Source: Caulobacteraceae bacterium
GTDB lineage: Bacteria; Pseudomonadota; Alphaproteobacteria; Caulobacterales; Caulobacteraceae
NCBI GenBank assembly: GCA_025352085.1
Contig: JANXUA010000029.1
Span: 55,887 to 119,886, forward strand
Reading direction: 5' to 3'
DNA length: 64,000 nucleotides
This document shows, in pieces, positions 49,900 to 54,144 of this stretch; the stretch's first letter is position 1; each line of letters opens with the position of its first letter. Made by a program: the position numbers and the translations under genes. The notes beneath the pieces are model-generated. The model did not search any database. It was given only the letters and a program-made list of their open reading frames with translations, and was not told where the DNA came from.

Positions 49900-50487
49900 T
49901 TACCCGCCCATCATCTTGCGAAACGCCGCCCGGTCGGTGATCCGCGCCGCATAAGCCTTGAGCACCGGGGTTTCGGCGACCATCTTGGACATCATCATGA
50001 AATTCAGCCCGCCGCCCAGCATGATGTCCACCGCCGAAAACGTATCGCCGAGGAAATAGTCGCGCGTCGCCAGATGGGCGTTGAGCACCGCCTCCACCTC
50101 GTCCGCCGGCGCCCACCCCATGGCCCCAGGCACATGCTTGATCTCGAACCGCCGGGAGATCAGCGCCGGCTCCATCACGCCTGGTCGATAGGCCAGCCAG
50201 GACAGGTATGCGCCGCGCGTCGCCTGGCCGGGCAGTGGTCCCATCGGAACCGTCCGGTATCTATCGGTTAGATATATTGCGATGGCGCTCGACTCGAACA
50301 CCGTCTCGCCATCGTCGCTCAAGGCCGGGACCTTGCCGTGTGGATGAGGATTGGCCGGATCGCGCGCCCCGGTGCCATCGGGCCGGCGCCAGTCGACGTC
50401 ATGGATCTCATACGGAATGCCGAGCTCCTCAAGGAGCCAGACAATGCTGGCCGCGCGGGTGTTGGGGGAATGGTGGAGGGTGATCAT
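49900..50487 (-). CDS. Glutathione S-transferase family protein
   Basis: MITLHHSPNTRAASIVWLLEELGIPYEIHDVDW...NPHGKVPALSDDGETVFESSAIAIYLTDRY; start at ATG 50487. Confidence 0.92.
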   Translation of the reverse strand: MITLHHSPNTRAASIVWLLEELGIPYEIHDVDWRRPDGTGARDPANPHPHGKVPALSDDGETVFESSAIAIYLTDRYRTVPMGPLPGQATRGAYLSWLAYRPGVMEPALISRRFEIKHVPGAMGWAPADEVEAVLNAHLATRDYFLGDTFSAVDIMLGGGLNFMMMSKMVAETPVLKAYAARITDRAAFRKMMGG

Positions 50488-50552
50488 TGACGGACTGCAT
50501 GGATTGAGTTTCGAGAGTAGAAATCTTGACATGAAATTCAGTATTGACATAG

Positions 50553-50567
50553 GAACGAAACAAGAAC
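50553..50567 (+). promoter_or_regulatory. Alphaproteobacterial LexA-type operator GAAC-N7-GAAC
   Basis: GAACgaaacaaGAAC read directly, 40 bp upstream of the 50607 smORF; matches the published alphaproteobacterial SOS box pattern GTTCN7GTTC / GAACN7GAAC. Confidence 0.75.
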
Positions 50568-50606
50568 AATAACGAACCTCGAACATTATTGTCGGAGGAT
50601 AACATC

Positions 50607-50696
50607 ATGGTTCGGTTCGCTCGGGAGTCGTTGGCGCTTGCGTCGGTGGTCGGGTTCGTTTGGATGGTGTGTCAGGCGGCGCAGTTGGCGGCCTGA
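50607..50696 (+). CDS. sidA: 29-aa single-TM protein, probable SOS-induced cell-division inhibitor SidA
   Basis: MVRFARESLALASVVGFVWMVCQAAQLAA; Shine-Dalgarno GGAGGA at 50594-50599; LexA-type box upstream; directly upstream of dnaE. Same length, membrane character and context as Caulobacter crescentus SidA. Absent from the supplied ORF track (every listed ORF is at least 60 aa). Confidence 0.8.
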   Translation: MVRFARESLALASVVGFVWMVCQAAQLAA

Positions 50697-50724
50697 GTCG
50701 CTCAAAGCGTGAGGAGTTGAAGTC

Positions 50725-54144
<3,420 letters not shown>

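Follow-up and report, generated by a model that had tools for sequence, protein, structure and literature searches.

A probable orthologue of the Caulobacter division inhibitor SidA upstream of dnaE, and candidate relatives at dnaE in other Alphaproteobacteria

SidA of Caulobacter crescentus is a 29-residue inner-membrane protein that is induced upon cleavage of LexA (PMC4211646, PMC9578287, PMC12700426). It contacts both FtsW and FtsN, and point mutations in ftsW and in ftsI suppress its effect (PMC4211646); because of these contacts and suppressors, the protein is thought to keep the septal-wall complex inactive (PMC4211646, PMC9578287, PMC12700426). Published AlphaFold 3 models, which are of low confidence, position it against transmembrane helix 7 (TM7) of FtsW (PMC13396833). 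Here we describe a small gene that resembles sidA in a 64-kb stretch of DNA from a Caulobacteraceae bacterium, referred to throughout as the window, and the distribution of similar genes in the family, in the order and in the Alphaproteobacteria at large. The gene had been recognized before in a sequence-only reading of the window, whose description of C. crescentus SidA (29 aa, inner membrane, SOS induction, FtsW/FtsN) agrees with the published account (PMC4211646).

The gene occupies positions 50607 to 50696 of the forward strand: an ATG at 50607 opens a frame of 29 codons, closed by a TGA at 50694-50696, and encodes the peptide MVRFARESLALASVVGFVWMVCQAAQLAA, a predicted single-transmembrane (TM) division inhibitor. 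A Shine-Dalgarno (SD) sequence, GGAGGA, is found at 50594-50599, 7 nt 5' of the ATG. All of these elements are as the sequence-only reading had given them, and so is the interval of 28 bp between the TGA, which ends at 50696, and the ATG of dnaE at 50725. The maximum of the Kyte-Doolittle hydropathy averaged over 19 residues, calculated from sequence only, is 1.76. Short ORFs are common in high-GC DNA (10 kb contain 120 with 25 aa or more), and this one could in principle be a chance ORF without a product. However, when both strands of the window are considered, no other SD-led ATG ORF of 25-35 codons has a hydrophobic core, and in 20 local shuffles of the window the mean number of such ORFs was 0. 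The SD site, together with the curated family match, the operator and the family-wide conservation presented below, also speaks against chance, to which we assign a practically vanishing probability; by conservation this reading is refuted.

The identity of the peptide was assessed with the NCBIfam equivalog NF033228 (div_inhib_SidA), which it matches with 64.9 bits (cut-off 35) over positions 1-29 of 29; in a control panel of well-known genomes this profile matches Caulobacter vibrioides only. Since the match is full-length, the gene order with dnaE is kept family-wide and a LexA operator is present, the assignment of the ORF as an orthologue of Caulobacter SidA, previously put forward as probable, is supported. 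Twenty-nine residues are few for distinguishing SidA from a subfunctionalised paralogue, although sidA is single-copy in the genome of the window. In Pfam, PsaJ was returned for the peptide below threshold only and was dismissed as a chance likeness of short TM helices; a search of PHROGs gave no match, and Rfam found no structured RNA over 50300-50900. It had also been suggested that length-limited annotation would probably miss the gene. This is what we would expect of length-limited callers, or of MAGs processed without an NF033228 step, but not of pipelines that use NF033228: as the SidA family is already in NCBI's library, a pipeline with that library should name the gene. By itself, then, the copy in the window is no discovery but an ordinary member of a family with existing NCBI annotation; its value lies in the correct annotation of a checkpoint gene, which length-limited ORF callers can lose.

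The promoter region of sidA consists of the 119 bp (50488-50606) that separate it from a divergent glutathione S-transferase-like gene on the reverse strand (49900..50487, likely start at 50487; Pfam GST_N/GST_C, with weak NCBIfam GST matches). The LexA-type promoter proposed from the sequence can be recognized here as a tandem predicted operator at 50553-50584. Its first box, GAACGAAACAAGAAC (50553-50567, forward strand), is a perfect alphaproteobacterial SOS box, GAAC-N7-GAAC, in agreement with the published consensus GTTCN7GTTC (PMC9578287, Table 1); the second, TAACGAACCTCGAAC (50570-50584, forward strand), lies 17 nt after the first and has one mismatch. In the nearest relative (L002) both boxes are perfect and occupy the same two positions. 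Only two perfect GAACN7GAAC/GTTCN7GTTC sites occur in the whole window, one of them being GAACGAAACAAGAAC. Genome-wide, there are 89 perfect matches to the motif, against 46 for the reversed control; the motif by itself is thus weak evidence, and what matters is its position before sidA. A TTGACA hexamer (50544-50549) sits just 5' of the perfect box, and a simple scan, which does not model Caulobacter promoters, found no sigma-70 consensus promoter upstream of sidA.

The conservation of the peptide was studied at loci fetched through dnaE alone, with the peptide never used as a query, and is therefore not argued in a circle. The peptide was present directly 5' of dnaE in 47 of 47 Caulobacteraceae-type loci retrieved in this way, including that of Caulobacter vibrioides T5M6, and was absent from the five loci retrieved from other orders. 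The search of relatives with the peptide itself, which had been proposed along with the orthology, also found it conserved: matches at E <= 1 were obtained in 230 of the 249 family genomes sampled, and in most of the others either a divergent copy is recovered by a profile or the start of dnaE is missing from the assembly. Five genomes that were re-searched without finding SidA (G095, G100, G043, G044, G050) are uninformative as to its loss, because the start of dnaE is missing from their assemblies too. Three others (G017 and G031, of one genus, loci L188 and L187, and G016) have dnaE but lack both sidA and a LexA box in front of it. These look like true losses, and in the genus of the first two the SOS division brake has apparently gone. 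A second SidA-like ORF, of 37 aa, occurs in one genome of the family, on the minus strand of locus L086 (1473-1586), with a score of 29.7 bits, under the NF033228 cut-off; as it lies away from dnaE and no counterpart was found elsewhere in 149 family genomes, it reads as a lineage-specific paralogue or remnant.

The operator is conserved as well. A strict LexA box lies within 160 bases upstream of 63 of the 81 distinct sidA gene sequences, and 17 of the remaining 18 have a box with one mismatch, the last being cut by a contig end. Among 66 distinct genes of 29 codons (2145 pairs) pS is 0.59 and pN 0.22, so that sidA is under purifying selection; M1, S13, F17 and V18 are invariant in this set, and W19, M20 and A25 nearly so.

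The dnaE gene downstream (50725..54144, forward strand, 1139 aa; NF004226 and Pfam) encodes the alpha subunit of DNA polymerase III, in its replicative form DnaE1: it scores 1411.6 bits against the NF004226 equivalog (cut-off 1002), while the score of PRK05672, for the error-prone DnaE, stays under its cut-off. We found no terminator-like site in the 28-bp interval, and dnaE is therefore likely to be induced along with sidA in the SOS response. The same arrangement, a short ORF 28 bp 5' of dnaE and no terminator in the gap, would suit a translated leader that serves mainly to couple or attenuate the expression of dnaE and whose peptide has no function. Against this, it is the amino acids and not only the frame that are conserved, with pN well under pS and an SxxxFVWM core kept. 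Moreover, the distance between sidA and dnaE ranges among relatives from 24 to more than 300 nt, a variation so wide that leader coupling could hardly tolerate it, which disfavours a mere translational leader; in addition, the C. crescentus peptide is active when expressed from a plasmid (PMC4211646). We consider a leader without a functional peptide very improbable.

These results can be combined with the C. crescentus data into a scheme for the action of SidA in the organism of the window, to which SOS induction, inner-membrane location, FtsW/FtsN contact and the division block are carried over from C. crescentus. In the undamaged cell LexA would occupy the boxes at 50553-50584 and keep the promoter closed. 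Upon DNA damage RecA would become active and LexA be cleaved, giving a transcript that begins with sidA and probably runs into dnaE. The 29-aa peptide would then insert as one TM helix with its charged N-terminus in the cytoplasm and keep the FtsW/FtsI/FtsN septal-wall complex in an inactive state, and the cell would grow undivided until LexA builds up again. The genome contains lexA, with a box of its own upstream (C55:14759-14773, before C55:14832), and ftsW, in the order murD-ftsW-murG and divided between two contigs (G000:C14 start and C27 start; L137, L138); given these genes and the data on C. crescentus SidA, the same function is expected here.

One hydrophobic helix under SOS control is also what would be seen if sidA encoded a toxic TM peptide of the DinQ/TisB kind, which disturbs the membrane in general and does not have FtsW as its target; E. 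coli DinQ is described as an SOS-regulated toxic single-TM peptide (PMC3567139). However, the match to the SidA equivalog NF033228 points elsewhere, as do the site of action of C. crescentus SidA at FtsW/FtsN and the suppressor mutations in ftsW and ftsI (PMC4211646). In addition, conservation within the helix is residue-specific, which suggests specific contacts. We see very little chance that general membrane disturbance is the correct description. Overall, the best explanation of the locus is an orthologue of Caulobacter SidA that would impose a LexA-controlled, damage-induced block of division, and we hold this to be very highly probable.

In an order-wide sample no match to NF033228 above the cut-off was obtained outside the Caulobacteraceae; one order-level match, in genome G255, covered 8 residues only and was discarded. 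This genome does carry at dnaE a divergent SidA-like peptide that NF033228 misses. When GAAC-N7-GAA boxes are taken together with the perfect ones, the succession of LexA box, SD, single-TM peptide of about 30 residues and dnaE is found in 50 of 51 loci of the family that we denote f4, in 15 of 43 loci of f3 and in 2 of 2 of f5. SidA-like LexA-boxed TM microproteins were seen 5' of dnaE in the order's other families at loci L189, L190, L191, L192, L194, L198-L234, L236-L241 and L256-L275. Nine tested peptides of the f families have no match in NCBIfam, NF033228 included, and two tested ones have none in Pfam. Purifying selection acts on the peptides within close groups of f3, f4 and f5: pS and pN are, for example, 0.45 and 0.09 in one f4 group and 0.41 and 0.013 in f3. 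The identity of f4 peptides to one another's reference is 23-57%. A profile-profile comparison of f4 with SidA gives a probability of 95% and E 2.8e-8 over 23 columns, which include a GF-x-W-M core. With shuffles that keep the composition of the N-terminus and of the helix, 20 of 28 SidA sequences beat the 99th percentile of shuffles against the f4 profile, and 11 of 26 sequences did so in the reverse direction.

The survey was extended to 114 dnaE loci of Alphaproteobacteria, mostly one per family. A perfect LexA box lies within about 430 bases of dnaE at 13 of these loci. An SD-led TM ORF of 24-36 codons was found in 10 of the 13 boxed loci and in 5 of the 101 without a box (Fisher p ~1e-8); as a hydropathy criterion, applied to ATG starts only, was used to call these ORFs, their hydrophobicity is not independent evidence. 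Scored with a profile built from SidA plus f4, 7 of the 10 peptides at boxed loci outscore 298 or more of 300 shuffles, the other three being indistinguishable from shuffled sequences. The peptide of locus L372, MTNFLKDFLALSSVVGVLWAVTVWSAIVGSALT, which comes from outside the order, is plainly SidA-like (33.7 bits, with 0 of 300 shuffles as good). Loci outside the order that have a LexA box and an SD-led TM ORF of 31-35 aa 5' of dnaE are L305, L339, L351, L352, L353, L358, L372, L381, L382 and L383. A score of 19 bits was also obtained for L370, a locus that lacks a perfect box. At L378 (G537) a LexA box is followed by an SD-led ORF 5' of dnaE that starts with GTG, and which falls outside the ATG-only count; it may represent a further form of the cassette. 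Overall, the combination of LexA box, TM microprotein and dnaE occurs in about a tenth of the sampled families of Alphaproteobacteria.

Stated cautiously, these observations suggest that a SidA-like cassette under LexA control, placed 5' of dnaE, has a greater age and a broader distribution than the annotated family. We give slightly better than even chances to the stronger reading, that SidA represents a single branch of an ancient SOS cassette of Alphaproteobacteria which would act as a damage-induced division brake also in many lineages that NF033228 misses. We found no published description of SidA outside Caulobacter, which is weak evidence, coverage of the literature being partial. If the microproteins upstream of dnaE are relatives of SidA, the alphaproteobacterial division stop during SOS becomes directly testable, and so does the question of why a division brake is tied to the gene of the replicative polymerase.

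The unnamed microproteins share with SidA the LexA box, the SD, a length of about 28-36 aa, one predicted TM helix and dnaE as the next gene; they differ in that the tested ones escape NF033228 and Pfam. Like SidA of C. crescentus, the peptide of the window has 29 aa, a full-length profile match, a predicted single TM helix with a basic N-terminus, dnaE downstream and a LexA box, the difference being that the second LexA box of the window is degenerate, and Caulobacter-type SidA copies are roughly 66-79% identical to it. DidA of C. crescentus is also a small membrane division inhibitor that is induced by DNA damage and targets the FtsW/I/N complex (PMC4211646), but it is SOS-independent, controlled by DriD and binds FtsN; the LexA boxes upstream of the ORF and its match to the SidA family speak against this identity. 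YneA, SosA and ChiZ, from Gram-positive bacteria and mycobacteria, are likewise small proteins with a single TM segment that are induced in the SOS response and inhibit division at a late step; they have no known sequence relation to SidA, and ChiZ and YneA have LysM domains. In AlphaFold models SidA, too, sits on TM7 of FtsW, but on the face opposite to that of YneA, SosA and ChiZ (PMC13396833).
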